From assembly GCA_027335345.1 (NCBI GenBank), contig DAHWOF010000187.1, positions 1 to 33,902 on the forward strand: DNA of 33,902 nucleotides. The letters run 5' to 3'. The notes under the pieces were generated by a model, which worked only from the letters and a program-made list of their open reading frames with translations, had not been told where the DNA came from and did not search any database. This document shows positions 417 to 26,940 of the stretch, in pieces; the stretch's first letter is position 1, and the number at the start of each line of letters is the position of its first letter. The translations under genes were made by a program, and so were the position numbers. The stretch comes from Granulicella sp. (lineage in GTDB: Bacteria > Acidobacteriota > Terriglobia > Terriglobales > Acidobacteriaceae).

Positions 417-446
417 CCGTTCAAGTGCGCGCAAACAGTTGAACGG
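417..446 (+). promoter_or_regulatory. 8-bp inverted repeat just upstream of dsrA (candidate operator or leader stem)
   Basis: CCGTTCAA (417-424) and TTGAACGG (439-446) are perfect inverted repeats separated by 14 nt. The half-site centres are 22 bp apart (about two helical turns), which suits a dimeric regulator. The site ends 28 nt before the preferred dsrA start and 15 nt before its ribosome-binding site, so an RNA hairpin affecting translation is the alternative. Confidence 0.45.
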
Positions 447-474
447 ATACGAAATGGAAACGGAGGAACGAATT

Positions 475-1677
475 GTGGCGAGTCCGGAAGATGTAAGCGG
501 CAAGCCAGAGACGCCATTGCTCGATCAGTTGGAGCAAGGGCCTTGGCCGAGCTTTGTGAAAGAGATCAAATCGGCTGCACAGGCCAGTGAAATGCCTGCT
601 GATCTGCTCGGCCAAGTGGAACTCTCCTACAAGCAGAAGAAGGGCCATTGGAAGCATGGTGGCATCGTGAGCGTGCGCGGCTATGGCGGCGGCGTGATTG
701 GGCGCTACAGCGATGAGCCGGAGCAGTTTCCCAAAGTCAGCCAGTTCCACACTATCCGCGTCAACCAGCCCTCTGGATGGTTCTATTCCAGCCAGGCTCT
801 GCGCACCCTCTGTGATATCTGGGAACGTCATGGCTCCGGCCTCACTAACATGCATGGCGCCACCGGAGACATTGTGCTGATGGGCGCCACCACTGCTGAG
901 CTGGAGCCAACCTTCAATGAACTCACTGCGGCGGGATTCGATCTTGGCGGCTCTGGTTCAGCGATGCGCACTCCGTCCTGTTGCGTCGGGGAGGGCCGCT
1001 GCGAGTGGTCATGCTATGACACCATGAAGCTGTGCAATGATCTCACGCAGCAGTACCAGGACGAGATCCATCGCCCGCCCTTCCCTTACAAGTTCAAGAT
1101 CAAGATGTCCGGTTGTCCCAACGATTGTGTCGCGGCCGCCGCCCGCTCTGATCTGGCCATCATCGGCACATGGAAGGACTCCATCCAGCAGGATGACGCC
1201 GCCGTTGCGCAGCACGCCGCCGAAGGCGTCGATATCCAGAAGGACGTGTGCGATCGCTGTCCCACGCATGCCATGGACTGGGACGGCCAACACCTCACCA
1301 TCCGCAATGAAGACTGCGTTCGCTGCATGCACTGCATCAACGTCCTGCACAAGGCTCTGCGCCCCGGCAAGGAGCAGGGAGCCGTCATTCTGGTCGGCGC
1401 CAAGGCGCCTATCATTCAAGGCGCGCTGCTGGCCTCCGTCCTTATTCCCTTTGTTCCCAAAGAGGAGTTGCACGAGACAGTCACCGAACTCGTCTCTCGC
1501 ATCTGGGACTTCTGGGGCGAATACGGAAAGAACCGCGAGCGCGTCGGAGAACTGATTCAGCGTGTCGGTTTGCCGGCCTTTCTGGATGGCATCGGCCTCG
1601 ATCCCGTTCCCGAGATGGTCGCTGCGCCCCGTGATAACCCCTACATCTATGCCCATGAGACCGGAGGTGAAAAGTGA
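475..1677 (+). CDS. dsrA: Dissimilatory sulfite reductase, alpha subunit
   Basis: DsrA with DsrB forms the cytoplasmic alpha2beta2 siroheme enzyme that reduces sulfite and transfers sulfur to DsrC. The N-terminus carries the family block [20 protein letters not shown]. Ligands of the siroheme-coupled [4Fe-4S] are visible as C-x5-C (C170, C176) and C-x3-C (C214, C218). The inserted ferredoxin-like domain has C259/C262 and C281-x2-C284-x2-C287. I chose the GTG at 475 because GGAGG (462-466) sits 8 nt upstream. An in-frame ATG at 454 and a TTG at 439 have no good ribosome-binding site. The resulting 400 residues fit the family. It overlaps dsrB by GTGA, implying translational coupling. Confidence 0.97.
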
Positions 1678-2759
1678 GTACAGCCATTCCTGCAAAGCGG
1701 ATCACGGACATCGGCCCCCCGCATTATGAACAGTTTCTGCATCCTGTCATCAAACGCAACTACGGCAAGTGGCGGTATCACGAGAAGGTTGCGCCCGGCG
1801 TGCTCTGTCATGTGGCTGAGTCCGGGGAGCGTATCTACACCGTGCGCGCCGGATCTCCGCGCCTGCTCAGCATCCAGACCCTGCGCAACTTCGCCGATCT
1901 GGCCGACCGCTACTGCGAGGGGTATCTTCGCTTCACCAGCCGCCACAACGTCGAGTTCCTGCTCGCCAGTCAGGAGAACGTCGAGCCACTCAAAAGCGAG
2001 TTGTTTGCCTTGGGTTTCCCCGTGGGCGGCACCAACAACTCGATCAGTAACATCGTGCATACCCAGGGCTGGGTCCACTGCCACTCAGCCGCCACGGACG
2101 CCTCGGGCGTCGTCAAGGCTGTCATGGATGCTCTCTATGATCGCTTCACTCACGAGGACCTTCCCGGCAAGGTGCGGGTTGCCATGGCCTGCTGCCTCAA
2201 TATGTGCGGCGCCGTCCATTGCTCCGATATCGCCATCCTTGGCGTCCACCGGACGCCGCCTCAGATCAAGCATGACAATCTGCGCAAGGTGTGCGAGGTT
2301 CCCACGCTGATCTCCTCCTGCCCCACCGGGGCCATCCGCGCCGCCACCGTTAATGGCAATGCTTCTGTTGAGGTGGTCGAAGAACAGTGCATGTTCTGCG
2401 GCAACTGCTACACCGTCTGTCCGGCGATGCCGCTCAACAATCCCGAGACCGATGGTTTGTCCATCTGGGTCGGCGGCAAGGTAAGCAACGCGCGCAGCGA
2501 ACCCATGTTCACCAAGCTGGCCGTACCCTTCATCCCCAACAACCCTCCGCGCTGGCCGGAGGTCGTCGAAGCCGTCCTCAAGATCATTGATGTCTACGCC
2601 AAAGGCGCAAGAAAGTACGAGCGCGTCGGAGAGTGGATCGAGCGGATCGGCTGGCCCCGGTTCTTCCAGTTGACTGGATTTGAATTCACGCGTTACCACA
2701 TCGACGACTTCAAACATGCCGGTTTGAGTTACGCACGTTCGGCTCATATCCGCTACTAA
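1674..2759 (+). CDS. dsrB: Dissimilatory sulfite reductase, beta subunit
   Basis: This is the partner of DsrA (361 aa). The GTG start overlaps the dsrA stop, with GGAGG at 1663-1667, 6 nt upstream. Visible family features are the TQGWVHCHS block (C136), the [12 protein letters not shown] cluster segment (C173, C174, C178, C183), SCPTGAI (C216) and the ferredoxin motif [12 protein letters not shown] (C239, C242, C245, C249). In known enzymes the catalytic siroheme sits at the alpha-beta interface. Both subunits look intact with all expected cysteines. Presence of dsrD downstream argues for the reductive type, but oxidative versus reductive clade needs a tree. Confidence 0.97.
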
Positions 2760-2780
2760 GACAGCGAAAGGCTGATCCAA

Positions 2781-3980
2781 ATGGCTCTTTTCAAGCAAGT
2801 CAAGAAACCAGAAATACGCAATGCCGGCGCTGAGAGCGATGTCAGCTCCCATCGTCCGGCCCATATTGAAAAGACCGCTCCGTGCATAGCAGGCTGCACC
2901 ATCAACAACCACGTGCGCGACTGGATCGTTCCCTTGGCGCAACATCAGGCCTACGGACGCACTGAAGACGAAGCCTTCGCTGCAGCATGGAACGCCATTA
3001 CTATCTTGAATCCCTTTCCCGCCGTCAGCGGGCGGGTCTGCCAGCACCCTTGCGAGAACCTGTGCAATCGAAAAGGGAAAGAAGGAGCCGTGGCCATTCG
3101 GGACCTCGAGCGGTTCGTCGGCGACTTCGCCGTCTCCCATCAACTGAAGCTTGCCCGGCAGACAGCCGCAGGTTCGGGCGCCAGGCTCGCTGTCGTCGGG
3201 GCCGGGCCCAGTGGGCTTAGCTGTGCGTACCGATTGGCTCAGCGCGGCCATTGGGTCGTCCTGTTCGACGCAGATCCTCTGCCCGGGGGCATGATGCGGC
3301 GCCACATCTCCCGGGACGTCCTGCCCCTCAACATCCTTGAGTATGAGGTTCAGAACATCCTCGACATCGGTGTCGAGTTTCGCGGTAACTGCGTTGTGGG
3401 TCGCGATCTTTCCACCGAGACGCTCGCCACGGAGTTCCAGGCAGTCATCTATGCCGTTGGGTTGCAAAAGCCGGCCTCCATGGCTTTGCGCCGCCACCCG
3501 AGCGGCGCCTTGATCTGCGGCGAGTTACCCACGGAGCTTCCGGGTCCGGAGGCGGAGGCGACAGACTTTCAGCCGCGGACCCTCAACATGGTCACGCCCT
3601 GTATCGCCCAGGGCGGCAAGGCAGCCGAAGAGATCGATGCCGTGCTCAGGGGGAGTGTCCGCCCGGCCAAGTCCGACGCTGCCGTCATCAAGATGGACCG
3701 GATGAAGCTGGACTGGTATCCGGCGCTGGAAAGATGGACGCCGAGCAACGATGCCGTAACGGCCGCCAGCGACATCACCGCCGCCGAGGCCATTGCGGAG
3801 GCTACCCGTTGCATGTCCTGCGGCATGTGCATGGACTGCGAGTCGTGCTGGATGTATTGCAGCAATAATTGCTTCGTCAAGCTGCCCAAGGGAGAGCACT
3901 ACAAGATCCGCCACGAGCTTTGCAACGGTTGCAACAAGTGCGCTGAGGCTTGCCCGTGTGGCTTCCTGGAGATGCAATAA
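2781..3980 (+). CDS. DsrL-like iron-sulfur flavoprotein, lacking the NAD(P)H domain
   Basis: This 399-aa protein is related to the glutamate-synthase small subunit and DsrL. The N-terminal cluster segment has C35, C39, C87, C91 and C95. The FAD Rossmann motif GAGPSG is at 140-145. The C-terminus carries two ferredoxin-type motifs, one around C344-C364 and one at C381, C384, C387, C391. In GltD/DsrL the FAD part is interrupted by a second Rossmann domain for NAD(P)H. Here the chain passes from AVIYAVG (about 221-227) to the FAD-closing segment GGKAAEEIDAVLRG (about 278-291) with no second GxGxxG. DsrL of sulfur oxidizers is about 650 aa. Its place between dsrB and dsrC suggests electron delivery to DsrAB, but the donor is probably not NAD(P)H bound in the usual way. 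Spacing to dsrB is 21 nt. Confidence 0.8.
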   Translation: MALFKQVKKPEIRNAGAESDVSSHRPAHIEKTAPCIAGCTINNHVRDWIVPLAQHQAYGRTEDEAFAAAWNAITILNPFPAVSGRVCQHPCENLCNRKGKEGAVAIRDLERFVGDFAVSHQLKLARQTAAGSGARLAVVGAGPSGLSCAYRLAQRGHWVVLFDADPLPGGMMRRHISRDVLPLNILEYEVQNILDIGVEFRGNCVVGRDLSTETLATEFQAVIYAVGLQKPASMALRRHPSGALICGELPTELPGPEAEATDFQPRTLNMVTPCIAQGGKAAEEIDAVLRGSVRPAKSDAAVIKMDRMKLDWYPALERWTPSNDAVTAASDITAAEAIAEATRCMSCGMCMDCESCWMYCSNNCFVKLPKGEHYKIRHELCNGCNKCAEACPCGFLEMQ

Positions 3981-4010
3981 ACGCAAGAATGAACCAAAGA
4001 GGAGATAGAA

Positions 4011-4328
4011 ATGCCTGAATTCAAAGTAGGAGAACACACATACGACGTCGATGAGGACGGGTTCCTTACAAACCCCGATATCTGGAACCGCGATGTGGCG
4101 AAAGACCTGGCAACCACCGAGCAGATCACGGATATGACGGACAACCACTGGAAGGTCGTCCAGTACCTCAGGGACTACTATGTGCAGTTCGGCGTCGCTC
4201 CCATGGTGCGCAAGGTCTGCAAGGATACCGGATTCAAACTCAATGAGATCTATGATCTCTTCCCTTCCGGGCCGGCCAATGGAGCGTGCAAGATCGCTGG
4301 CCTCCCCAAGCCAACGGGTTGCGTCTAG
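4011..4328 (+). CDS. dsrC: DsrC, sulfur-carrier substrate protein of DsrAB
   Basis: This small cytoplasmic protein (105 aa) carries the sulfur released by DsrAB as a trisulfide between its two C-terminal cysteines and is re-reduced through DsrK. The C-terminal arm shows the diagnostic pair: the Cys in NGACK and the penultimate Cys in PTGCV, separated by exactly 10 residues, so it is a true DsrC and not a TusE/RspA homologue. AGGAG precedes the ATG. A strong stem-loop follows in the gap to the next gene. Confidence 0.96.
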   Translation: MPEFKVGEHTYDVDEDGFLTNPDIWNRDVAKDLATTEQITDMTDNHWKVVQYLRDYYVQFGVAPMVRKVCKDTGFKLNEIYDLFPSGPANGACKIAGLPKPTGCV

Positions 4329-4385
4329 GCGTCGGTTGCAAGATGCGCCGAAGCCGGCAACAAGGCGCACGCAATTGTGTTCCCG

Positions 4386-4439
4386 AAGACGGATATGCGT
4401 GATGAGTCGAGTTGTCTCCTGGCTGAATATCCGTCTTCT
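4386..4439 (+). promoter_or_regulatory. 12-bp stem-loop between dsrC and the RsbRD-N gene
   Basis: GAAGACGGATAT (4386-4397) and ATATCCGTCTTC (4428-4439) are perfect inverted repeats with a 30-nt loop, 57 nt after the dsrC stop. No T-run follows, so it is more likely an RNA processing or stabilising structure or a partial attenuator than a full terminator. The 134-nt gap that holds it is by far the largest gap between genes of the dsr cluster. Confidence 0.6.
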
Positions 4440-4462
4440 ACAAACTCCCCAGCAACCTTGTC

Positions 4463-4915
4463 ATGCCTTCCTTTGATTCCATCGTCGATGCCTGGTTTTT
4501 GAAGTCGATCGAGATCTATTCGCCAGCAGTGCGCGACACCCTGATACGGACCACGGACCGCTTTCGCAATCCCATGGCCTTCAACCTGCGCCAGTCCCTG
4601 AAAACTCTGGTTAATCAAGTCGCTGGCCAGATGAATCCAGAGGCCGTCAACAAGGCGCTGGATGGAATCGTCCGCCTGCGCGCCGTCCAGGAGTGCAGCC
4701 AGTCGGAGGCAGTCAGCTTTGTGGCGCGGCTGGAAGAGGTGATCCGCGAGCAGCACGCCGAGACGCTCTTCCCCAACCTGAAACAACATATTGGTCAGCT
4801 CACCGAACGCGCGCTTCTGCAGTACAACTCCTGCCGAGAAGAGATCCTTCGCGTCCGCTACCGTAGCGAACAACGTTTGCGGACGCTCGAGCCTTGGATG
4901 AGGCAGTCGTTATGA
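4463..4915 (+). CDS. RsbRD N-terminal-domain protein in the dsr operon
   Basis: This 150-aa, mainly helical soluble protein resembles the N-terminal domain of RsbT co-antagonist RsbRD. The features are a helical start (WFLKSIEIYS), FRNP, a central VRLRAVQECSQSEAV segment and a basic C-terminal helix. In known stressosome proteins this domain is the globin-like sensory half. Here there is no STAS domain. Similar stand-alone proteins sit next to dsrMKJOP in some sulfate reducers, but the function is unknown. It overlaps dsrM by ATGA. No clear ribosome-binding site precedes the ATG. Confidence 0.75.
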   Translation: MPSFDSIVDAWFLKSIEIYSPAVRDTLIRTTDRFRNPMAFNLRQSLKTLVNQVAGQMNPEAVNKALDGIVRLRAVQECSQSEAVSFVARLEEVIREQHAETLFPNLKQHIGQLTERALLQYNSCREEILRVRYRSEQRLRTLEPWMRQSL

Positions 4916-5898
4916 GATACCGGGCCGGCTTCGCTCTTCTGATCGCTCTGGCGCCAGCCTGCTCCGGAGTTGCTCTCGCCTTCCTTCCGAAATCGTTTCT
5001 GGTGCTGGCGCCGGCCGTGGCCTACGCAGCCTGCGCCATCTTTCTGCTTGGCTTACTGGCTCGGTTGTGGCGTTGGACCAGCTCTCCCGTACCTTTTCGC
5101 ATCCCAACCACCTGCGGACAACAGCGCTCGCTGGCATGGATTCCTCCCGCCCGGCTCGACAATCCGTCGACGGGACTCACGGCCGGCGCGCGTATGCTCC
5201 TGGAAGTTCTCACCTTTCGCTCCTTGCTGCGCAACTCGCGCTCCCGCGCCGGAAGTGACGCCGTGACCTCTCACGATAGCCTTGGACTCTGGCTGGGGGC
5301 CATCGTCTTTCACTGGTCGCTGCTGATCATCCTCCTGCGGCATCTGCGCCTTTTCGTTCAGCCGGTTCCAGCCTTTGTCCTTACGCTTCAGAAGCTCGAT
5401 GCGCCCTTTCATACAGGCGCTCATCCGCTCTATCTCAGCGACGTCGCACTCCTTCTCGCCCTGGCGTATCTGCTGCTGCGCAGGCTTGCCAATCCTCTGG
5501 TTCGGTACGTCTCTCTGTTGACGGACTATCTGGCGCTCTGGCTCTTGCTCGAAGTCGCCCTCACCGGCGTGCTGATGCGTTATCTCATCGGCGTGGACGT
5601 TACCTCCATCAAGCAGTTCGCAGTCAGCCTGGCAGCCTTTTCTCCCGTTCTTCCCCGCAACTGCGGCCCATGGTTCTTCGCCCATCTGTTTCTGGCCTGT
5701 TCGCTGGCTGCTTATATCCCCTTCAGCAAGATCGCTCACATGGCCGGAGTCTGGCTCTCTCCCACCCGCAACCTGGCCAATAACAATCGGGCCGTTCGTC
5801 ATATCAATCCGTGGAATGCGCCGGTCAAGACCCATACCTATGCGGAATGGCTGGAAGAGAACAAGGACAAGTTGAAGAGTGCGGGGATCCCTGAGTAG
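4912..5898 (+). CDS. dsrM: DsrM, membrane cytochrome b subunit of DsrMKJOP
   Basis: This integral membrane protein (328 aa) of the NarI-like family oxidizes menaquinol and passes electrons via two b hemes to DsrK. Several hydrophobic helices are visible. The likely heme-ligand histidines are in FHWSLL, LLRHLR, FFAHLF and KIAHM. The start at 4912 overlaps the preceding stop (ATGA). A start 18 nt further upstream is possible but unsupported. The C-terminus (INPWNAPVKTHTYAEWLEEN) is a cytoplasmic tail as in other DsrM proteins. Confidence 0.93.
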   Translation: MRYRAGFALLIALAPACSGVALAFLPKSFLVLAPAVAYAACAIFLLGLLARLWRWTSSPVPFRIPTTCGQQRSLAWIPPARLDNPSTGLTAGARMLLEVLTFRSLLRNSRSRAGSDAVTSHDSLGLWLGAIVFHWSLLIILLRHLRLFVQPVPAFVLTLQKLDAPFHTGAHPLYLSDVALLLALAYLLLRRLANPLVRYVSLLTDYLALWLLLEVALTGVLMRYLIGVDVTSIKQFAVSLAAFSPVLPRNCGPWFFAHLFLACSLAAYIPFSKIAHMAGVWLSPTRNLANNNRAVRHINPWNAPVKTHTYAEWLEENKDKLKSAGIPE

Positions 5899-5920
5899 CC
5901 AGCGGGGCAGGAGTAACAAG

Positions 5921-7525
5921 ATGTCGAGTGATCTTATCCAAATCGAGCAGCATTCTCCTAAAGGGGACTGGGCCTCGACCAAACCGGAGTTCCGCAAAGG
6001 AACCTGGTGTTACAGCGCCACGCCGCAGAACCTTAGCTCTCTCGACCTGCCCAACCCTCGGCCATGGCAGCCGTCTGATCCTGATTGGAAGCTCCCGGAG
6101 AACTGGAAGCAGATCCTGCTGGATGGCATCAAGGAGAGGCTGGAAAAGTATCGCTCTTTCAGGCTCTTCATGGATCTCTGCGTGCGCTGTGGAGCTTGCG
6201 CGGACAAGTGTCACTTCTATCTTGGCTCTGGGGATCCGAAGAATATGCCCGTGCTTCGCGCCGAACTCCTGCGCTCCATCTACCGCAGATACTTCACCGT
6301 CAGCGGTCGCCTGTTTGGAAGGCTGGCCGGGGGAAGAGAGCTTACCGAAGACGTGGTCAAAGAGTGGTTCTACTACTTCTACCAATGTACCGAGTGCAGG
6401 CGCTGTTCAGTCTACTGCCCCTACGGCATTGATACTGCTGAAATCACCATGATCGGCCGGGAGCTGCTGAACCTCATCGGTTGCAATACCAACTGGGTTC
6501 TGGACCCCGCGTCCAAGTGCTATCGCATCGGCAACCACCTTGGCATTCCGCCTCACTCACTCAAGGATAATCTCGATTTTGCCGTCGATGAGTTAGAGGA
6601 GATCACCGGGGTACGCGTGGAAGTTCCCATAGGAAAGAAGGGGGCTGAGGTGCTCTTTGTCGCTCCCTCAGCGGACTACTTCGTCACGCCGCACTACTAT
6701 ACCCTGCTCGGCTATCTTGCCCTCTTTCATGAGATCGGCCTCGACTATACGTTCAGCGCCTATGCCAGCGAAGGCGGCAACTTCGGCCTCTTCAGCTCGC
6801 ACGAGTTGATGAAGCGGCTCAACGCCAAAATCTATGACGAGGCCAAGCGCCTCAAAGTCAAGTGGGTTCTTGGCGGTGAGTGCGGTCATATGTGGCGCGT
6901 AATCAACCAGTACATGGACACCATGAATGGGCCAGCGGACTTTCTTGAGACTCCGGTATCACCGGTGACCGGAACCAGGTTTGATCACGTTCGCTCCACC
7001 AAGATGCTGCACATCGCCGAGTTCTCAGCGGACTTGATACATCAGGGAAAGATCAGGCTCGACCCGCGGCGGAACGACCATTGGCGAGTGACCTATCACG
7101 ACTCCTGTAACCCCGCCCGCGCCATGGGACTGCTCGACGAACCTCGCTACATCCTGCGCAGCTCCTGCAACCACTTCTTCGAGATGCCGGAGAGCACGAT
7201 CCGCGAACACACCTTCTGCTGCGGTAGCGGTTCCGGCCTGGGCACAGACGAGAACATGGAAATGCGTCTTCGCGGCGGCTATCCGCGGGCGATGGCCGTC
7301 AAGCACGTCAAGGAGCGTCACGATGTCAATGCGCTCGCCTGTATCTGCGCGATCGACAAAGCTGTTCTCCCGCCGCTGCTGGAGTACTGGGCGCCCGGCG
7401 TGGAAGTAGCTGGAGTGCATGAACTGCTGGGCAACGCGCTGGTCCTCAAAGGGGAAAAGCAGCGCACCACCGACCTGCGCGGACAGCCAATTCAGACCGC
7501 TGAGGAGGAACCCGCCCATGCGTGA
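5921..7525 (+). CDS. dsrK: DsrK, HdrD-like iron-sulfur subunit that reduces DsrC trisulfide
   Basis: This 534-aa cytoplasmic-face protein is related to heterodisulfide reductase HdrD. Two ferredoxin motifs are visible: CVRCGACADKC (C87, C90, C93, C97) and CTECRRCSVYC (C156, C159, C162, C166). The C-terminal half has CCG-type segments (HDSCNPARAMG, then FCCGSGSG) that in the family bind the noncubane active-site cluster. With DsrM it forms the quinol-to-DsrC electron route. The ATG at 5921 follows dsrM by 22 nt, and the end overlaps dsrJ (ATGCGTGA). A 14-residue upstream extension in frame is unlikely. Confidence 0.95.
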   Translation: MSSDLIQIEQHSPKGDWASTKPEFRKGTWCYSATPQNLSSLDLPNPRPWQPSDPDWKLPENWKQILLDGIKERLEKYRSFRLFMDLCVRCGACADKCHFYLGSGDPKNMPVLRAELLRSIYRRYFTVSGRLFGRLAGGRELTEDVVKEWFYYFYQCTECRRCSVYCPYGIDTAEITMIGRELLNLIGCNTNWVLDPASKCYRIGNHLGIPPHSLKDNLDFAVDELEEITGVRVEVPIGKKGAEVLFVAPSADYFVTPHYYTLLGYLALFHEIGLDYTFSAYASEGGNFGLFSSHELMKRLNAKIYDEAKRLKVKWVLGGECGHMWRVINQYMDTMNGPADFLETPVSPVTGTRFDHVRSTKMLHIAEFSADLIHQGKIRLDPRRNDHWRVTYHDSCNPARAMGLLDEPRYILRSSCNHFFEMPESTIREHTFCCGSGSGLGTDENMEMRLRGGYPRAMAVKHVKERHDVNALACICAIDKAVLPPLLEYWAPGVEVAGVHELLGNALVLKGEKQRTTDLRGQPIQTAEEEPAHA

Positions 7526-7913
7526 ACGCTGGCTGATCACCCTCGGTTACGGAGTCTTCGTGGTCTTCTTCACCTTTCCTCTGTGGCGGGCCGCTGCAGC
7601 AAGGTCGTCCGGATCGATGCCCCGGCTGCAATCGTCCCCTGCGGGCCAGTGCGTTGCGCCCGTCGAACAGATGCGCGTTGCGCACATGAACATGCTGTTC
7701 CAGTGGCGTGAGGATGCTGTGCGCCACAATAACCTGACGTTTGTCGCCTACAACGGCAAGGTGTACCGAAAGAGCCTCGATGGAACCTGCCTCTCCTGCC
7801 ACGATAAGCAGCAGTTCTGCGACCGCTGTCATGCCTACTCCGGCGTCTCTGGTCCAGACTGCTGGAACTGCCACAACGATCCGCGCGCCTTCGCGCCCAG
7901 GGTGATGCCATGA
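7518..7913 (+). CDS. dsrJ: DsrJ, periplasmic triheme cytochrome c
   Basis: This 131-aa protein has one N-terminal membrane anchor/signal (about residues 5-22) and three CxxCH heme sites: CLSCH (91-95), CDRCH (101-105) and CWNCH (115-119). C45 in GQCVAP lies at the position of the conserved cysteine that in Allochromatium DsrJ is an unusual axial heme ligand, followed by QMRVAHMNML. It overlaps both neighbours (dsrK stop at 7523-7525, dsrO start at 7910). Confidence 0.94.
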   Translation: MRERWLITLGYGVFVVFFTFPLWRAAAARSSGSMPRLQSSPAGQCVAPVEQMRVAHMNMLFQWREDAVRHNNLTFVAYNGKVYRKSLDGTCLSCHDKQQFCDRCHAYSGVSGPDCWNCHNDPRAFAPRVMP

Positions 7914-8686
7914 AGATTACCCGCAAGGAGTTTCTCGAACTCAGCGGCCTCTCGGTTTTGGCTGCCGGCGCTTTGCACGCCGTACATGCAGTCAAGGCCG
8001 AAGAGACCTCCCATCCGGCCGGCGCACAGGCTGACCCGCCAAAGAAGCAGATGGCTTTAGCCATCGATCTGCGCAAGTGCCGCCAGAGACTGGGTTGCAA
8101 TCTCTGCAGCGCGGCTTGTAATGCAGCCCACAATGTCCCGCAGTTCTCTGATCCCAGGCATCAGGTCAAGTGGATCTGGAGCGAGCCATTTGCCGAGGTC
8201 TTTCCGCTCGATCAGAATGGTTACACCCGTCGCAACTACACTGGCAGCCCACTGCCTATCTTGTGCAATCACTGCGACCATCCCCCGTGTGTTGAAGTCT
8301 GCCCTACTGGAGCCACCTGGAAGCGCGCCGAGGATGGCGTCGTGATGATGGATTGGCACCGCTGCATCGGCTGCAAATACTGCATCACCGCTTGTCCTTA
8401 CGATGCGCGGAGTTTCAACTTCTCTGATCCCCGGACTGCGCTCCAGCAGGTCAATCCGGACTTCCCCACGCGCACTCTGGGGGTGGTCGAGAAATGCGAC
8501 TTTTGTGCCGAGCGTCTTGCCAAAGGGGAACCTCCGGCCTGTGTCGAAGCCTGTCCAGAGAAGGCGATCGTCTTCGGCGATGTGCACGATGCATCCTCGG
8601 AGATCTCCAAGGCGCTTGAAGAAAGTTACAGCCTCCGGCGAAAGCCGGAGTTGGGCACTGGTCCCAACGTGTTCTATTTCCTGTGA
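7910..8686 (+). CDS. dsrO: DsrO, periplasmic ferredoxin-type subunit
   Basis: This 258-aa protein carries 16 cysteines in four [4Fe-4S] motifs: C57/63/66/70, C119/122/127/131, C152/155/158/162 and C196/199/211/215. It is predicted to relay electrons between DsrJ and DsrP on the outer face. The N-terminus is a Tat-type signal, but the twin-arginine pair reads TRKEFLEL (Arg-Lys), not Arg-Arg, followed by a hydrophobic stretch to about residue 28. The ATG overlaps the dsrJ stop. Confidence 0.94.
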   Translation: MKITRKEFLELSGLSVLAAGALHAVHAVKAEETSHPAGAQADPPKKQMALAIDLRKCRQRLGCNLCSAACNAAHNVPQFSDPRHQVKWIWSEPFAEVFPLDQNGYTRRNYTGSPLPILCNHCDHPPCVEVCPTGATWKRAEDGVVMMDWHRCIGCKYCITACPYDARSFNFSDPRTALQQVNPDFPTRTLGVVEKCDFCAERLAKGEPPACVEACPEKAIVFGDVHDASSEISKALEESYSLRRKPELGTGPNVFYFL

Positions 8687-8696
8687 GGATAAGCCT

Positions 8697-9860
8697 GTGT
8701 CCCTGATCGAAAAGACGTTGGCCGGTGGTCGTCGATACTGGCTTTGGCTGGGTTTTCTGGCTGTCCTGATGGTGATGGCCCTGCTCGGGTGGGTTCAGGA
8801 GCAGCAGGTCGGCCTGGGCATCACCGATCTCAGCCGCAATATGCCCTGGGGACTCTACATCGGTCAGTTCATCTTCTGCGTGGGGGTGGGTGACGCCGCC
8901 CTGGTCGTCATGCTTCCCTACTACCTGCACCATTGGAGGGCCTATGCCAAGGTCGCCCTTCTCGGTCAGATCCTGGGCACAGTAGGCGTGATTCTGGCCA
9001 TGCTGTTCATCTTTGTCAGCATGGGCAAACCGGTTCGGCTGATCAATGTTCTTCTCTATCCTCATCCGAGATCTCTTATCTTCTGGGACATGCTCACTCT
9101 GAGCGGCTATGTCATCCTGACCGCCATCATCATCTTTCGATTGCTCATTGCCGAACAGGAGCACAGCGCGCCACCTCTCTGGACCCAAAGGCTTGTCCTG
9201 CTCTCTTTTCCCTGGGCTGTAGGCATTCATACCGTCACGGCGTTTCTCTTGTGCGGTCTGGTGGCTCGCCCCTATTGGTTCACAGCTCTGCTCGCTCCCC
9301 GCTTCCTCGCCTCTGCTTTGACCGCGGGATCAGCCATGCTGGTGCTCATCCTCCTGCTCCTCAAGCGCCTAGAGCTCTTCGATGCGGAAGAAGACGCTCT
9401 GCGCAGGCTCGCCACAACCGCCGCTTACTGCCTGGTTGTGCATGTCTTCTTCACTCTGGTCGAGTTCTTCAACGTCTTCTACGGTGGAGTTCCGCAAGAG
9501 GTCGAGCATGTGGATTATCTCTATGGAGGCCTCACCGCAACGTCCCCGGTCGCTCCCTGGATGTGGCTCTCCGCAGTTCTTGCTTTGGTGGCCTTGCTGG
9601 TGCTGCTGGTCCCCGCTCTGCGGCAGCGGACTCCACTTCTCCTCGCTGCCTGCACATCCGCTGTCATCTCCATCTGGATCGAAAAAGGTTTTGGCATGCT
9701 CGTCGGGGGCTTTGAGCCGTCGCCGTTCGGAGCCACGCCGCCCTATGTCCCGGACTTCTCCGAGTGGAAGGTCGCTGCCGGAATCTGGGCCTTGGGAGCG
9801 TTCCTCGTCACCCTGATGTACAAGATCGTCTTCTCCGTTCGGAAGGAAGCAGAAAGCTAG
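8697..9860 (+). CDS. dsrP: DsrP, NrfD-like integral membrane subunit
   Basis: This very hydrophobic protein of 387 aa, with about ten predicted helices, belongs to the NrfD/PsrC family. These proteins bind quinone and pair with a DsrO/NrfC-type ferredoxin. Family-like features are MPWGLYIGQFIF near the N-terminus and a charged loop GGVPQEVEHVDYLYGG. The GTG at 8697 is chosen because it lies 10 nt after the dsrO stop with GAGGAT upstream. The longer frame to 8403 is dsrO antiframe sequence. Confidence 0.93.
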   Translation: MSLIEKTLAGGRRYWLWLGFLAVLMVMALLGWVQEQQVGLGITDLSRNMPWGLYIGQFIFCVGVGDAALVVMLPYYLHHWRAYAKVALLGQILGTVGVILAMLFIFVSMGKPVRLINVLLYPHPRSLIFWDMLTLSGYVILTAIIIFRLLIAEQEHSAPPLWTQRLVLLSFPWAVGIHTVTAFLLCGLVARPYWFTALLAPRFLASALTAGSAMLVLILLLLKRLELFDAEEDALRRLATTAAYCLVVHVFFTLVEFFNVFYGGVPQEVEHVDYLYGGLTATSPVAPWMWLSAVLALVALLVLLVPALRQRTPLLLAACTSAVISIWIEKGFGMLVGGFEPSPFGATPPYVPDFSEWKVAAGIWALGAFLVTLMYKIVFSVRKEAES

Positions 9861-10712
9861 GTGAGTATCGTGAACCATCAAATCGGAATGGTATATCTGG
9901 TGGGCGCAGGGCCCGGACATCCGGACCTGCTGACCGTCAAAGCTGTCAATCTCCTGCGCAAGGCGGATGTGATCGTCTATGACCGCCTGATTCAGGAAGA
10001 CGTGCTGGATCTCGGCAATCCTGCCGCCGAACGGATCTACATGGGCAAGTGCGTCGGCGGTCACGCCTCCCGGCAGGACGAGATCGATGCCCTGCTGGTC
10101 GAAAAGGCTCGTGAAGGCAAGATCGTCGTTCGCCTCAAGGGCGGCGATCCCTTTCTGTTCGGTCGCGGCGCAGAAGAGGCCGAGTACCTCATTGACCGTG
10201 GCATCCCTTTTGATGTGATCCCCGGAGTCTCCTCCGCTCTCTCCGCACCGCTCAGCGCTGGAATTCCGGTCACCCACCGCGATCTGGCCTCCGGCATAGC
10301 CATCGTCACCGGTCACTTCTCCACGGACGAGCACGAGCAGGCGCTTGACTTCTCCGCACTCAGCCGAATGCCAACCCTGGTGGTGCTGATGGGCGTGCAT
10401 ACCGTGGCGACAATTGCCTCGCGACTCATCCAGGCAGGCCGCGAGCCGTCTACACCCGCTGCAATGATTCAAACGGCCTTCTGGCCAGGACAGAAGGCGG
10501 TTGTGGCCACGCTCGGAACCATCGCAGAGGAGGCAACCCGGCAGGGCGTCGTTGCGCCAGCCACTCTGGTCATCGGCGAAGTGGTTCGGCTGCACGAAAA
10601 GTTGCGCGTCGCGGCTCGCGAGCTCCAGAACCCAACCGGCGAGTTCTCCTGCTCCGCTCCCACTATCTCTGCCGTGGACGCAGCATTCGCCGGCATGACA
10701 TTCACAAATTAA
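9861..10712 (+). CDS. cobA: Uroporphyrinogen-III C-methyltransferase (siroheme/cobalamin precursor)
   Basis: This SAM-dependent enzyme makes precorrin-2, the precursor of the siroheme used by DsrAB. It shows VYLVGAGPGHPDLLT near the N-terminus, DVIVYDRL, RLKGGDPFLFGRG, VIPGVSSA and the PVTHRD motif, all typical SUMT signatures. The length (283 aa) suits a stand-alone CobA without the CysG dehydrogenase/chelatase part. The start is uncertain among GTG 9861, GTG 9870 (AGGTGA 5 nt upstream) and ATG 9888. It follows dsrP directly. Confidence 0.93.
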   Translation: MSIVNHQIGMVYLVGAGPGHPDLLTVKAVNLLRKADVIVYDRLIQEDVLDLGNPAAERIYMGKCVGGHASRQDEIDALLVEKAREGKIVVRLKGGDPFLFGRGAEEAEYLIDRGIPFDVIPGVSSALSAPLSAGIPVTHRDLASGIAIVTGHFSTDEHEQALDFSALSRMPTLVVLMGVHTVATIASRLIQAGREPSTPAAMIQTAFWPGQKAVVATLGTIAEEATRQGVVAPATLVIGEVVRLHEKLRVAARELQNPTGEFSCSAPTISAVDAAFAGMTFTN

Positions 10713-10730
10713 TCAGGAAAGGAAACTGAC

Positions 10731-10982
10731 ATGGCGGAAGTAACCGTAGCAAGCATCGCTGAAGAGATGTTCCAGTATGTCTCCGAGTGCGCTGGAAAGA
10801 AGAACCTTAAGGCCGGCGACCTGACCAAGTTCGCCATCAGCAAACACGGCGAAGAGGCTTGCACCAAAGATATGTGCAAGCAGGCTATTCGTGAACTTAT
10901 CGACTCCGAGCGCTGCATCTACAGCTATCTGGGCGGGTCTTACATTCAACTACCGCCCACTCCCGGCAGCGAAGTCATCTGA
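10731..10982 (+). CDS. dsrD: DsrD, activator of sulfite reductase
   Basis: This 83-aa protein has the winged-helix-like fold family features of DsrD: an N-terminal helix (EEMFQYVSECAGKKNL), KAGDLTKFAI, CTKDMCKQAIRELI and the wing CIYSYLGGSYIQLP. In sulfate reducers DsrD is an allosteric activator of DsrAB. Its presence is widely used as a marker of the reductive pathway, although exceptions exist. AGGAAAGGAA precedes the ATG. It sits between the siroheme genes cobA and dsrN. Confidence 0.93.
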   Translation: MAEVTVASIAEEMFQYVSECAGKKNLKAGDLTKFAISKHGEEACTKDMCKQAIRELIDSERCIYSYLGGSYIQLPPTPGSEVI

Positions 10983-10999
10983 CCATCACGGAGGCGGAG

Positions 11000-12424
11000 A
11001 TGAGCGCTCCTCATAATCCATCTCGGCTCGTGATCGCCGGCCTGGCCGGCGACTCGGGAAAATCCATCGTCTCTCTGGCGGTTCTGCGCAGGCTATCCTC
11101 CACCGGCTCGTTCGTTCGCGCCTTCAAAAAAGGACCGGACTATATCGACTCCGCATGGCTGTCCTGGGCATCGCAGCAACCTGCAAGGAACCTCGACACC
11201 TGGATGATGGGCTTTGACCGCGCTGCGCTCTCCTTTCAGCGCCACGCCACGGCCGATGGTCTCAATCTCATTGAAGGCAACCGTGGCGTCTTCGATGGAT
11301 CCGATGCCGCCGGTACGCATAGCACTGCCGAGCTGGCAAAGGCGCTTCAGGCCCCCGTACTGCTGGTCGTCAACGTCGCCAAGATGACCCGCACCGCCGG
11401 GGCGCTTGTCCTCGGCTGCCTGCGACTCGATCCTGCGTTGAACTTGGCTGGCGTCATCCTGAATCGTGTCCATGGATTACGCCACGAAGCGGTTGTGCGG
11501 GCCTCGATCGAAGCAGCTACCGGCCTTCCCGTCGTTGGCGCTGTTCCGTCCTTCGGTGCGGATATCCTCCCGGACCGGCATCTCGGACTCGTGACCCCGT
11601 CTGACTTCAAAGGAATCGATCGTCTGCCGGAGATCTTGGAGAAGGTTGCGGGAAACCTCGACATGGATCTGATTCTCTCGATCGCCGCTCAGGCGCCGCT
11701 TCTTTTGCCTCCGGCGTCTGGCCCGAGCCTTCCCCTGTCTTCTGGCTCCAGCCATGCCCCACGCATCGTCGTTCTTCGCGATGCCGCCTTCAACTTCTAT
11801 TATCCGGAGAATCTGGAAGCCCTCGCCGCTGGCGGCGCCGAACTGGTCTTCCACTCCTCCATGGAAGACGGCGCACTGCCCGCAGCTGCGGACGCCATCT
11901 ACATTGGAGGAGGTTTCCCGGAGGTCCACGCAGCCAGGATCAGCGCGAACAACAGCTTTTTAAACTCGTTGGCTGCAGCCGCCACACGCAACGTTCCCAT
12001 CTACGCCGAGTGTGGTGGCCTGATGCTCCTCAGCAGATCCATCGAGTGGGGAGGGAAGCAGCATCCCATGGCCGGCGTTCTGCCCATTGATGTGACGCTG
12101 GAAGACACGCACCAGGGGCATGGCTACGTGGAGATGATCGTGACTGAACCCAATCCGTTCTTCCCCCAGGACACGTTGCTGCGCGGCCATGAGTTTCATT
12201 ACTCCAGTATCGAAACGAAGACCGGAAGGCCGACGACGGCCTGCGCTGTTCGCCGTGGTACAGGAGCGTTTGACAAGCGTGACGGCCTCATCCTGAACAA
12301 CGTTTGGGCCAGCTATACCCACCTGCATGCATCCTCATCTCCTGAGTGGGCTGAAGGGATGATGCTGGCCGCGCGCCGTCATCTCTCTGGCCGGAACGTC
12401 TCCGCGCAACGGAGTTCTCTGTGA
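11000..12424 (+). CDS. dsrN: DsrN, siroheme amidase (CobB/CbiA-like)
   Basis: This 474-aa protein is homologous to cobyrinic acid a,c-diamide synthase. The N-terminal ATP-binding domain has AGLAGDSGKS (P-loop-like). The C-terminal type-I glutamine amidotransferase domain has YIGGGFPE and the nucleophile segment YAECGGLMLL, with a late histidine segment GHEFHYSS. In dsr operons this enzyme amidates siroheme for DsrAB. GGAGG lies 9 nt before the ATG. A cobalamin role is less likely given the neighbours. Confidence 0.93.
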   Translation: MSAPHNPSRLVIAGLAGDSGKSIVSLAVLRRLSSTGSFVRAFKKGPDYIDSAWLSWASQQPARNLDTWMMGFDRAALSFQRHATADGLNLIEGNRGVFDGSDAAGTHSTAELAKALQAPVLLVVNVAKMTRTAGALVLGCLRLDPALNLAGVILNRVHGLRHEAVVRASIEAATGLPVVGAVPSFGADILPDRHLGLVTPSDFKGIDRLPEILEKVAGNLDMDLILSIAAQAPLLLPPASGPSLPLSSGSSHAPRIVVLRDAAFNFYYPENLEALAAGGAELVFHSSMEDGALPAAADAIYIGGGFPEVHAARISANNSFLNSLAAAATRNVPIYAECGGLMLLSRSIEWGGKQHPMAGVLPIDVTLEDTHQGHGYVEMIVTEPNPFFPQDTLLRGHEFHYSSIETKTGRPTTACAVRRGTGAFDKRDGLILNNVWASYTHLHASSSPEWAEGMMLAARRHLSGRNVSAQRSSL

Positions 12425-12458
12425 GTGTGAGTTTCCCGCGAATGATTGGAGGTTCATG

Positions 12459-13367
12459 ATGACCTTGCTGCTGCCCATCGCAATCTACGTCGGGCTGGGC
12501 GTCTCCCTTCTCGGCTGCCTGCTCCGCATCTTTCAGTACGCCAGAACCCCCGTCCCTTTGGTCTGGGATCTGCTTCCGGCTTCTGGCGAAGAAACCGATC
12601 ATGCCGAGCATCGCGGATCTTACTTTGAGGAGACCAACTGGTCGAAGCACCCGCACCACGAACATTCTTTCTGCGAGATCAGCGCAATGCTTCAGGATAT
12701 CTTTCTGCTGCATGGCCTCTGGAGGATCAATCGACCCCTCTGGCAGTGGTCGTTTCCCTTCCACGCCGGTCTGTACCTGCTCCTGGCCGGCGGCTCTCTC
12801 TCCGGCCTCGGCGTACTCTTTCACCCCTACGCGATTGCCGCAGTCATCTTCTTGCTGGCGCGGATCTGCGCCTGGGCCGGCTTGTGGTTGACGCTCTTTG
12901 GCAGCATCGGCCTCGCGTGGCGACGAATCACCGATGCGAACCTGCGACCCTATACCGTGCCCGGCGACCTGATCAACCTTGGCGGTTTTGCCCTCGCCTG
13001 TCTATTGATTCTGGCTGGCAGCTTGAGCCGAACCATGCCGCCGTTCCAGGAGACAGTTTTTGCTCTGCTCACCTTTCAGAAGATCCTGCAACTGCCTGTT
13101 CTCACCCAGGTTGGCATCGTGATTGGCTCTGCCATGGCAGGGTATATTCCGTTTACACAGATGGCCCATTTCATCGCAAAGTACATTACCTACTTCCTGG
13201 AGCGCCGCGAGGACGCTGCGATGAAAGCAACCATCCAAGCCGAAATGGCCCGGAACCTCGCCTATCATCCCACCTGGTCCGCCTCCCATATCGCTGCCGA
13301 AGGCAACAAAAGCTGGGCGGAGATCGCTATCTCCAATCCAATCTCCGCGGAAAGGATCTCCAAATGA
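12459..13367 (+). CDS. Second DsrM-like membrane cytochrome b (DsrM2)
   Basis: This 302-303 aa NarI/DsrM-like membrane protein has about five to six helices. Candidate heme ligands are the histidines in FLLHGLWR, FPFHAGLY and QMAHFIAKY, near the pattern in DsrM (4912-5898). A hydrophilic segment rich in His/Glu (about residues 40-70, including KHPHHEHSF) precedes the second helix. Two ATGs are possible (12456, 12459), and GGAGG at 12448-12452 is spaced better for 12459. The stop overlaps the next start (ATGA), so it is the partner of the DsrK-like protein. TmcC/HmcE-type identity is an alternative. Confidence 0.8.
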   Translation: MTLLLPIAIYVGLGVSLLGCLLRIFQYARTPVPLVWDLLPASGEETDHAEHRGSYFEETNWSKHPHHEHSFCEISAMLQDIFLLHGLWRINRPLWQWSFPFHAGLYLLLAGGSLSGLGVLFHPYAIAAVIFLLARICAWAGLWLTLFGSIGLAWRRITDANLRPYTVPGDLINLGGFALACLLILAGSLSRTMPPFQETVFALLTFQKILQLPVLTQVGIVIGSAMAGYIPFTQMAHFIAKYITYFLERREDAAMKATIQAEMARNLAYHPTWSASHIAAEGNKSWAEIAISNPISAERISK

Positions 13368-14971
13368 AAGATGTCATACGAGTCAGTGATATGTCGCGTC
13401 GGAATAGCGACTCGCTATGCACCTTGGATGAGCCCGATCTGAAGCCTTCACCTTCCAGCCTGGGTTCGGTAAAGGAAGGTCCCGCGCTTACGCCCTTGAA
13501 GCCCGAGGTGATCCAGTGCTGCGAGTGCAGCCTGGACGGAACCTGCGCGCTCAACATCGCTCGTCCAAAATCGCGCGAGGAGGAGGACCGCCTCGTCGCC
13601 TCGTTCCTCTCCGGACTGGAGAAGCTCTTCACCCGAGAGAACAACTGGACCTTTCTTCGCTTCCTCGTCTACACCATGGAAAACTGCACCCGCTGCCAAA
13701 GCTGCTCGGATGCCTGCCACATCTATGAAGCCAGCGGGCGCCAGGAGATCTATCGCCCCACCTATCGCACTGAGGTGCTGCGGCGTCTCTACTTCAAATA
13801 CGTCAAGCATGGTGGCCTGCTCAGCGCATGGCAGCACGGCGACATCGAGTTGAACTGGCCCTTGGTTGCACGGCTTGCCGAACTCTCCTACCGTTGCAAC
13901 CTCTGTCGGCGCTGCGCCCAGGTATGCCCCATCGGCGCTGACAACGGTCTGCTAGCCCATGAACTGCGCAAGATCTTCAGTCAGGAGATGGGCATCCATC
14001 CCAAAGAGCTGCATGACAAGGGAACCATGTTGCAACTCAAGGTCGGCTCAACCACCGGTATGCCCGCCGCCGCCGTCAAGGACAACGTCGAGTTCATCGA
14101 TGAGGACATGAGCGAAAGAACAGGCCTCGAAGTCCATACTCCATGGGACGTCGAAGGAGCCGATGTCTTGCTGATTCATAACGCCGGCGAGATACTGGCG
14201 TGGCCAGAGAATCCCGGGGCGTACGCCGTCGTCCTGAACGCCGCGGGCATCCGCTGGACCCTCTCCTCGGAGCTGGCAGGCTACGACGCAGTCAACTACG
14301 GCCTCTGGTATGACGACGCTCAGTTCACACGGGTCGCGCTGAAGCAGCTAGAGGTGGCGCGCAAGCTCAAAGTGAAGAAGATCGTCATCGGCGAGTGTGG
14401 CCATGCCCACAAGTCACTTCTCGTCAATGTGAACCGGATCGCTGACGACGAGCTCAATATACCTCGCTTCAGCTCGATTGATCTCTTGCGGGACATCGTC
14501 TTCAGCGGCAAGCTCAAACTGGATCCCTCGCGCAACAACTTTCCCATCACCCTGCAGGATCCCTGCGCCATCGTGCGCCTGATGCGAATCATCGAACCGC
14601 AACGGGAGATTCTGCACGCGATCGCTCCCCGCTTTCGCGAGATGACGCCCCATGGAGTCGACAACTATTGCTGCGGAGGAGGCGGAGGGCTCGCCATCTT
14701 GAATGCAAATAACTTCGGCGACTGGCGTTCTGAAGTAGCCGGACGCAAGAAACTCGATCAGATTCTGAATGCCTTTTCGGATTCGCTCGGTTCCTCCATC
14801 CCCAAGTACGTCTGCGCCCCTTGCAGTAACTGCAAAGGGCAGATACGCGACCTTTTCTCCTATTGGAATATATGGGAGCGGAATCGCATCCTGTATGGCG
14901 GCCTGGCCGAACTGGTCGTGAACGCCATGGCGGAGGTAAAACCTGGCTTTCTTGACTGGGAGTGGCGTTGA
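13364..14971 (+). CDS. Second DsrK/HdrD-like iron-sulfur protein (DsrK2)
   Basis: This 535-aa protein resembles DsrK: two ferredoxin motifs (C108/111/114/118 and C178/181/184/188), the CCG segment DNYCCGGGGG and a later CAPCSNCKGQ. It differs from the first DsrK in an N-terminal motif with C52, C53, C55 and C61 (CCECSLDGTC), suggesting one more metal site. No J/O/P-like genes follow. It probably forms a two-subunit quinol-linked disulfide/trisulfide reductase with DsrM2. The acceptor could be DsrC or another thiol protein. TmcB-like function is possible. It is the last gene of the cluster. Confidence 0.82.
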   Translation: MKDVIRVSDMSRRNSDSLCTLDEPDLKPSPSSLGSVKEGPALTPLKPEVIQCCECSLDGTCALNIARPKSREEEDRLVASFLSGLEKLFTRENNWTFLRFLVYTMENCTRCQSCSDACHIYEASGRQEIYRPTYRTEVLRRLYFKYVKHGGLLSAWQHGDIELNWPLVARLAELSYRCNLCRRCAQVCPIGADNGLLAHELRKIFSQEMGIHPKELHDKGTMLQLKVGSTTGMPAAAVKDNVEFIDEDMSERTGLEVHTPWDVEGADVLLIHNAGEILAWPENPGAYAVVLNAAGIRWTLSSELAGYDAVNYGLWYDDAQFTRVALKQLEVARKLKVKKIVIGECGHAHKSLLVNVNRIADDELNIPRFSSIDLLRDIVFSGKLKLDPSRNNFPITLQDPCAIVRLMRIIEPQREILHAIAPRFREMTPHGVDNYCCGGGGGLAILNANNFGDWRSEVAGRKKLDQILNAFSDSLGSSIPKYVCAPCSNCKGQIRDLFSYWNIWERNRILYGGLAELVVNAMAEVKPGFLDWEWR

Positions 14972-15107
14972 GTAGCTGCCTCCCGCGGGGCTTGGGGCTC
15001 TGCTGGGTATGGCAAATCCGATCGCAGGCGTTCGTGCTTTGCTGGGGCAGCGCATCCTTGGTCGCCTTGATCTGTGGACTGGCCGACGGAAGCCGGGAGC
15101 CAGTATC

Positions 15108-26345: not shown

Positions 26346-26940
26346 CCATCCAGTCGTCGTGGCCGGCCTCACCAGCATGCTGGGCACACAAGAGGGGATG
26401 GTTGTCACCGGATCCGCTTCCAGCGGCGAGGAAGTTGTTGAAATGTTGCGTACCCACCCCGCCGATCTCCTACTTCTAGACCTCCGAATGCCCGGCAGGA
26501 ACGGCGTCGAAACCCTGCATGCTCTTAATCGCAGCGGTATTCCCATACGTTCCATCATCCTTACCAGCTATGAGACCGACGAGGATATCTATCGCGCGGT
26601 GCAGGCCGGTGCGCAGGGTTACCTTCTCAAGGGAGCTCCCCAGGCCGACTTGATTGAGGCTATCTGGACCGTATACGGCGGCAAGCGTTACCTTCCCCGG
26701 CACATTGCAGAACACCTCGCGGAACGCATGATGCGAAGCGAGCTCACAGCCCGCGAAATTGAAGTGCTACACATGCTCGCCCGCGGCCTCACCAACAAGG
26801 AGATCGGCTCTGCGCTCCGCATCAGCAGCAACACTGTTCGCAACCACGTGAACAATATCATCGAAAAGCTCGAAGTATCAGATCGTACAGAGGCCGTAAT
26901 TACCGCCATTCATCGCGGCATCATTGATGTATATAGCTAG
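26299..26940 (+). CDS. NarL/FixJ-type response regulator
   Basis: This 213-aa protein has a receiver domain with acidic pocket ADDHP, phospho-acceptor D61 (LLLLDLRMPG), Thr in ILTSYE and Lys in YLLKGAP, then a LuxR-type HTH (LTAREIEVLHMLARGLTNKEIGSALRISSNTV). It is the cognate partner of the overlapping kinase. It is likely to control the divergent TonB receptor unit and/or its own operon (inference). The ATG at 26299 follows GGAGG closely. Confidence 0.93.
   Translation: MQEQRELLVRIFIADDHPVVVAGLTSMLGTQEGMVVTGSASSGEEVVEMLRTHPADLLLLDLRMPGRNGVETLHALNRSGIPIRSIILTSYETDEDIYRAVQAGAQGYLLKGAPQADLIEAIWTVYGGKRYLPRHIAEHLAERMMRSELTAREIEVLHMLARGLTNKEIGSALRISSNTVRNHVNNIIEKLEVSDRTEAVITAIHRGIIDVYS

Follow-up and report, generated by a model that had tools for sequence, protein, structure and literature searches.

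The gene at positions 2781–3980 of the window encodes a descendant of DsrL that lacks the NAD(P)H-binding Rossmann domain; the window is the whole stretch of DNA analysed, 33,902 nucleotides long. In published descriptions, DsrL serves DsrAB as its NAD(P)H:acceptor oxidoreductase. When the short protein was aligned with the long DsrL of the host's family and phylum, both ends were matched and the middle was missing. We give a probability of about 0.5 to the reading that short DsrL, which arose by domain loss from an acidobacterial type 2 DsrL, works for DsrAB as an NAD(P)H-independent iron-sulfur relay.

The gene and its dsr operon

The window is one contig of a 3.65-Mb acidobacterial assembly estimated to be 84.9 percent complete, and its dsr cluster runs from dsrA through dsrK2 over positions 439 to 14971 (Table 1). 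The dsrL frame is open, starts with ATG, codes for 399 amino acids and lies between dsrB upstream and dsrC downstream. Its best NCBIfam match was PRK12771 (305.7 bits, under the cut-off of 516), which aligned in two stretches, as expected for a GltD/DsrL-type protein with a hole. The N-terminal iron-sulfur domain (Pfam Fer4_20), one dinucleotide-binding motif (GAGPSG, residues 140–145) and a C-terminal 4Fe-4S domain were detected, in agreement with the preliminary description, which had reported this motif between two iron-sulfur regions.

Table 1. Features of the dsr cluster and of short DsrL in the window
Feature	Position	Strand	Evidence
dsrA (frame; start codon not settled)	439..1677	+	TIGR02064, 553.3 bits, cut-off 392.85
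dsrB	1674..2759	+	TIGR02066, 516.5 bits, cut-off 341.5
short dsrL, 399 aa, without NAD(P)H-binding domain	2781..3980	+	ORF, domain search, alignment
short DsrL, N-terminal Fe-S domain, residues 22-110	2844..3110	+	predicted ligands after Loffler 2020, conserved in 17/17
short DsrL, FAD-type Rossmann half, residues 132-232 (GAGPSG)	3174..3476	+	domain search, alignment, model, fold match
short DsrL, junction in place of NAD(P) domain and GGD motif, residues 233-268	3477..3584	+	alignment
short DsrL, retained segment behind lost GGD, residues 269-292, holds IAQGGKAAEEIDA	3585..3656	+	alignment; model helix 268-289
short DsrL, C-terminal ferredoxin domain, residues 337-399, 12 cysteines	3789..3977	+	domain search, alignment
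dsrC, both C-terminal cysteines present	4011..4328	+	PF04358, 127.1 bits
small protein with RsbRD N-terminal domain	4463..4915	+	PF14361
dsrM	4894..5898	+	NF038037, 403.5 bits
dsrK	5879..7525	+	NF045796, 710.9 bits
dsrJ (frame; profile match from residue 35 on)	7419..7913	+	NF038038, 122.5 bits
dsrO	7910..8686	+	NF045797, 285.1 bits
dsrP (frame; profile match from residue 102 on)	8403..9860	+	NF045798, 341.7 bits, slightly below cut-off 350; PF03916
uroporphyrinogen-III C-methyltransferase (siroheme)	9861..10712	+	TIGR01469, 293.3 bits
DsrD-like small protein (candidate), adjoins dsrN	10731..10982	+	homologue of dsrB-dsrL intergenic ORF in G114, L011, L012 and L017
dsrN-like cobyrinate a,c-diamide synthase	11000..12424	+	PF07685, PF01656
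dsrM2 paralogue	12456..13367	+	PF02665
dsrK2 paralogue (frame; profile matches from residue 311 on)	12746..14971	+	PF13183, PF02754

In the accessible parts of Hausmann et al. (PMC6018796), the pairs dsrD-dsrN and dsrL-dsrC are reported from peat Acidobacteria, an arrangement shared by the window, and acidobacterial DsrL is described as shorter than that of A. vinosum. On synteny and the dsrD-dsrN pairing given there, the small ORF beside dsrN is probably DsrD-like. Using a synteny-based query, such an ORF was recovered in all 26 dsrB-bearing genomes of the host's family; in three long-form genomes (G114, G276 and G314) dsrB and dsrL are separated by small ORFs. The Pfam profile DsrD (PF08679) was found in 0/26 genomes, in a search that matched nowhere, two scanned homologues had no match to it, and the PDB profile search returned none. 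If the ORF is DsrD, Pfam-based calls of DsrD absence in this family would be wrong. Both C-terminal cysteines of DsrC are present in 26/26 family rows, and together with the DsrD-like ORF they would fit a working, reductive pathway. Two of the DsrD-like matches (G308:C83:3989-4222 and G338:C277:5563-5796) contain one TAG each.

Some further genes of the window were recorded. The RsbRD-domain gene between dsrC and dsrM belongs to an ORF cluster found in 22/29 loci, short and long alike. Directly behind dsrK2 is a 581-aa frame (15009–16754) with no Pfam match at 0.001. At 24075–26345, histidine kinase domains and a domain of the 3-keto-disaccharide hydrolase type (PF06439) share one frame, and a LuxR-type response regulator comes next (26299–26940).

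Distribution

In a draw of 398 genomes from the host's family, 26 carried dsrB, and every one of these 26 has DsrL, in a short form in 17 genomes and a long form in nine. A search for further short homologues next to dsrB, proposed in the preliminary description, thus recovered the form in most dsrB-bearing genomes of the family. The short forms align over their full length and come from genera g1, g9, g34 and g56, the long ones from g7, g29, g39 and g63. L009 and L010 from the scan of relatives were taken to be the same genomes as the G393/G273 pair, two of the 17. The order dsrB-dsrL-dsrC holds in 17/17 short loci, with the start of dsrB on a separate contig in G346, and no genome among the 26 carries both short and long dsrL.

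A draw of 396 genomes from the phylum gave 33 with a match at 1e-50. Five were short, all from the host's family; the other families contributed 28 genomes, 27 with frames of 551–721 aa and one (G729) with a 167-aa fragment. Of these 28, 25 entered the tree; G439, G566, G729 and second copies in G537 and G658 were left unaligned. All 24 matches in a draw of 397 genomes from the order fell within the host's family. The contig scan was run with patterns from the window protein and reaches close relatives only. One long relative with a very long branch (L136, G465:C11:24723-25397) has one TGA within the match.

What the deletion removed

Between K230 and N269, 38–40 residues are present in the 17 short forms vs 168–197 in 37 long rows, so that short DsrL has about 145 residues fewer. 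The long rows comprise nine from the host's family, 25 from the phylum draw and three from the scan of relatives, of which L012 is identical to one phylum row over the columns used. The NADP motif GGGDTAIDAA/YRR is absent from all short forms, and the YRR signature, a feature of the DsrL-2 subgroup, is found in 0/17 short vs 33/37 long rows. Absent in the same 17/17 is the embedded second Rossmann domain for NAD(P) by which Loffler 2020 recognises DsrL; in the NfnB/GltD family an NAD(P)H domain sits between two FAD segments, and short DsrL has none there. The proposal that the second GxGxxG domain had been lost cleanly, without a frameshift, is supported by 17 genomes whose short DsrL aligns at both ends and forms one clade.

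The loss is larger than first reported. The preliminary description held that the FAD-closing segment had remained; the helix GGKAAEEIDA is indeed in place, but the GGD motif before it occurs in 0/17 short forms vs 37/37 long rows. As the GGD motif, which we take to close the FAD site in this fold class, is gone from every short form, the alignment indicates that the deletion also took part of the FAD domain, and FAD binding by short DsrL is uncertain. Two residues that never vary in the 37 long rows have also largely or wholly disappeared: G175 survives in 1/17 short forms and R180 in 0/17. The GxGPxG and GG of the Rossmann-type FAD domain are retained in 17/17, and so are I275, Q277 and G278 behind the lost GGD. 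Position 163 has changed from E to D in 13/17 and is acidic throughout, position 228 from A to L in 17/17, and N269 is a new residue, invariant in the short forms. The interval 293–336 measures 37–47 residues in short and 49–53 in long DsrL, with boundaries that differ from those of the linker of about 100 residues in Loffler 2020.

Erosion of the NADP site was also seen in long DsrL. Four of the nine long family forms (L084, L083, L080 and L087, from G193, G230, G288 and G381, respectively) have kept the NADP domain and lost YRR, with GGGDTA changed to GAGGTA or GAGLTA, whereas YRR is intact in the remaining 33 long rows. With the site eroded in these four as well, the host's family seems to have become able to dispense with NADPH use on more than one occasion.

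Iron-sulfur sites and selection

The N-terminal ligand positions, including the Ser and Arg of reductive DsrL-2, are listed in the parts of Loffler 2020 (PMC7596348) that we used. The corresponding predicted ligands S22, R25, C35, C39, C87, C91, C95 and E110 are conserved in 17/17 short forms, where S22 and R25 were assigned to NfnB Cys39 and Cys42 by spacing. By these positions the N-terminal domain should be able to bind two [4Fe-4S] clusters. All 12 cysteines of the C-terminal domain (C344 to C393) are likewise conserved in 17/17; four further cysteines of the window protein, which lie elsewhere than in the iron-sulfur regions, are not conserved. Short forms resemble each other most in the C-terminal ferredoxin domain (mean pairwise identity 0.84), followed by the FAD half (0.63) and the junction (0.42). 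C364 (3870–3872) and C393 (3957–3959), present in 17/17 short vs 25/37 and 30/37 long forms, respectively, became more fixed, not less, following the domain loss.

Nei-Gojobori estimates of dN/dS were 0.076–0.258 for short DsrL (nine pairs), close to the 0.063–0.204 of long DsrL (seven pairs). These values are rough, owing to synonymous saturation in part of the pairs and to a few upstream codons that were included in certain frames. Short DsrL is on these rough estimates under purifying selection, and neutral decay is disfavoured. dN/dS of dsrL exceeded that of both dsrA and dsrB in nine of nine short pairs, and that of dsrB in six of seven long pairs; some relaxed constraint on DsrL is possible.

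Structure models

In the AlphaFold model of short DsrL one Rossmann unit was predicted confidently (about residues 132–250), followed by a weak junction and a helix at 268–289. Two complete dinucleotide-binding domains, which would have spoken against the domain loss, were not seen. The models, built from 11 sequences each, are modest (mean pLDDT 65.7 and pTM 0.69 for the short form, mean pLDDT 64.4 for the long), and the N-terminal ends and C-terminal iron-sulfur parts are poorly modelled.

NfnABC, NfnL, GltD and DPD were returned as matches of the short model by Foldseek and VIA-align. With VIA-align it paired over 223–237 residues with four NfnL/NfnB-type chains, for which the long model gave 437–449 Foldseek columns; 232 of the 463 residues of NfnL (5jfc_L) were aligned (Z 22.9, rmsd 2.2). 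Short DsrL thus covers about half of the NfnL chain and lacks its NADPH domain. Trimethylamine dehydrogenase (2tmd_A) matched over 142 residues (Z 13.1, rmsd 3.3). When the C-terminal 245 residues were searched against PDB sequences, only generic matches of the ferredoxin and Nfn/GltD types came up.

Evolutionary history

On the shared DsrL columns the 17 short forms made one clade (100/100) nested within long acidobacterial DsrL, on a long stem of 0.43 changes per column. DsrB alone and concatenated Dsr proteins instead split the short operons into three groups, which were named after the trees had been seen; most trees were quick trees under LG+G4. The concatenated tree, also a quick one, was based on eight proteins, 2742 columns and 27 rows, with G346 and L017 dropped as too incomplete. 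Group I consists of G000, G273, G393 and G254, group II (g56) is sister to long G038, and group III (g9/g34) stands apart from both, placed by the concatenated tree beside a long set from g29/g7 (support 81).

Each data set rejected the arrangement of the other. The concatenated columns reject one short clade (p-AU 0.00025); the shared DsrL columns reject group II with G038 (p-AU 0.008) and group III with g29/g7 (p-AU 1e-7), and the FAD columns alone do the same (p-AU 0.0002 and 0.0001). This conflict between the dsrL and operon trees suggests that short dsrL moved between dsr operons. Six pairs of junctions from different groups were compared and proved homologous, with 0–5 of 2000 shuffles as good. 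We therefore read the history as a single deletion, after which dsrL was either exchanged between operons or duplicated and reciprocally lost. A history with two deletions and one exchange is possible: the iron-sulfur columns alone leave group II with G038 unrejected (p-AU 0.62), in line with two origins, and give the short clade no support (10), although they too reject group III with g29/g7 (p-AU 0.0015). Three independent deletions, hinted at by the operon tree, are disfavoured by the homologous junction and by the change of A228 to L and the presence of N269 in 17/17.

In genus g1, dsrB was found in G000 and G273 only, among 22 genomes listed, and their operons group with those of two g9 genomes (G393 and G254). 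In g1 the dsr genes thus look accessory and acquired.

Genomic context

Gene order and content beside short and long dsrL are much alike in the 29 loci compared. Within the stretches compared, a number of which are cut off by the end of a contig, no ORF cluster was common to most short loci and absent by the long ones. Among the clusters confined to short loci and lying on the dsr strand, the most widespread covered four loci (G254, G273, G391 and G393). ORF clusters were built by connected components, and some antisense frames were retained. Genes for 2-oxoacid:ferredoxin oxidoreductase do not adjoin short dsrL, the flanks of which are dsrB and dsrC. A match to dsrM2 at 1e-50 or better was present in 17/17 short and 3/9 long genomes, with three weak matches and three without any among the remaining long genomes; the four with eroded NADP sites have no strong match. 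In the 17 short genomes no stand-alone NADP-domain frame was found at 1e-6, all matches lying in frames of at least 451 aa.

A tie of short DsrL to full sulfate reduction was considered and none was seen: aprA was detected in 11/26 genomes (6/17 short vs 5/9 long), counts in which assembly gaps are possible, and the incomplete genome to which the window belongs gave no match.

Comparison with known systems

Short DsrL is closest to DsrL type 2 as given in the accessible text of Loffler 2020 (PMC7596348) and, for DsrL-2C, of Diao et al. 2023 (PMC10591310), where DsrL-2C occurs in reductive operons. It likewise lies beside dsrAB and shares the N-terminal ligands including Ser/Arg, one Rossmann motif and the C-terminal ferredoxin; it differs in the absence of the NAD(P) domain, YRR and GGD and in a somewhat shorter linker. 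With the NfnB/GltD/dihydropyrimidine dehydrogenase family it shares the N-terminal iron-sulfur domain and the FAD Rossmann half. HdrA/QmoA-type proteins are iron-sulfur flavoproteins that are described as working without NAD(P)H and have a different domain order; HdrA-type chains were far weaker fold matches (8rwn_A, Z 12.7; 5odh_A, Z 12.5) than NfnABC (Z 26–29), and the resemblance is one of working principle only.

Of the DsrL features in Loffler 2020, a complete gene in a dsrAB-bearing organism is present here, dsrAB lying directly upstream, and one defining feature, the NAD(P) domain, is absent. On its sequence features we therefore call the protein a DsrL-derived, NAD(P)-domain-less variant and not a canonical DsrL. 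The published curation, as described in the portion of PMC7596348 consulted, admitted a protein only if it had the embedded NAD(P) domain, so a form like this one would have been left out. No DsrL without the NAD(P) domain is described in the portions consulted of PMC7596348, PMC10591310, PMC6018796, PMC8528874, PMC11406059 and PMC10564751; the portion of PMC9448743 consulted does not mention dsrL.

Discussion

A donor other than NAD(P)H, proposed together with the domain loss in the preliminary description, probably follows from the anatomy of short DsrL. In the relay that we favour, a low-potential one-electron donor, most simply reduced ferredoxin (a guess), would reduce the iron-sulfur clusters of short DsrL, from which the electrons would reach DsrAB by way of the C-terminal two-cluster domain. 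DsrAB as acceptor is taken over from homology with long DsrL; for DsrC, named earlier as a further acceptor, the support is gene order alone. The iron-sulfur ligands and 12 C-terminal cysteines, conserved in 17/17, and the C-terminal ferredoxin domain, the most conserved part, speak for the relay, and NADPH input looks dispensable from the 4/9 long family forms without YRR and part of GGGDTA. Against it are the long stem, the higher dN/dS than in DsrA and DsrB, the lack of a short-specific partner gene and the non-exclusive dsrM2; moreover, the flavin, and hence the normal internal electron path, could have been lost with GGD, G175 and R180. A stronger statement would be that short DsrL is a naturally occurring separation-of-function form with neither NADPH nor a working flavin left, in which an iron-sulfur wire alone, driven by ferredoxin or an equivalent, feeds DsrAB, having arisen once and spread by exchange of dsrL; we regard this as doubtful.

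The fate of the Rossmann half bears on the same point. Somewhat less doubtful, though still tentative, is that the flavin was lost and the half-site kept, holding ADP or another nucleotide structurally, which would be compatible with the relay. The retained GxGPxG, GG and acidic residue at 163 (17/17), beside the missing GGD and R180 and the mostly missing G175, would suit such a site, and trimethylamine dehydrogenase, which binds ADP, is among the fold matches. That match is generic, however, with many FAD-binding chains scoring alike, and I275, Q277 and G278 are kept in 17/17, while the new invariant N269 could replace the lost contact. If the same losses and the stem of 0.43 changes per column are taken further, short DsrL might be a structural or allosteric subunit without electron transfer to DsrAB, its clusters serving folding or sensing; ligands and 12 C-terminal cysteines intact in 17/17 and a C-terminal ferredoxin as the most conserved part make this unlikely. 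The donor might also be quinol, reaching DsrAB through DsrM2, DsrK2 and short DsrL. The strong dsrM2 matches in 17/17 short vs 3/9 long genomes and the position of the two genes adjoining the dsr cluster in the window (12456–14971) point that way, but three long genomes have dsrM2 too, no strong match accompanies the four long DsrL whose NADP sites are eroded, the genomes are related, so that 17/17 are not 17 independent cases, and a low-potential relay is poorly served by menaquinol as its donor. We consider this route improbable. Still less probable is that another protein supplies the NADP domain in trans and NADPH remains the donor: other GltD-like proteins with NADP domains were matched in 17/17 genomes, yet none was a stand-alone frame, no new gene is common to the short loci, and the adjacent GGD motif has been lost as well. 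As for an error of assembly or gene calling, or a pseudogene in decay, the named relatives (L009–L012 and L017) are metagenome assemblies, but 17 genomes of four genera, 17 matches without internal stops, a junction of constant length (38–40 residues) and dN/dS well below 1 under purifying selection leave it next to no credence.

The relay reading can be set beside what is reported for A. vinosum, where, in the part of PMC7596348 consulted, NADH oxidation and NADH-to-sulfite transfer were independent of the iron-sulfur clusters, whose role was called 'enigmatic'. Short DsrL is the mirror image, with the cluster sites kept and the NAD(P)H site gone. Transfer from NADH that does not need the clusters, together with a form that keeps them without an NAD(P) domain, would point to a second electron route, and if short DsrL is an iron-sulfur-only adaptor, the clusters of ordinary DsrL would be a second electron entrance. 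Since short DsrL separates the cluster sites from NAD(P)H, the clusters can be tested in it without NAD(P)H interference. The acidobacteria that carry it probably power sulfite reduction from an electron source other than NADPH, and a dsrL gene in an acidobacterial genome does not alone imply NADPH-driven sulfite reduction.
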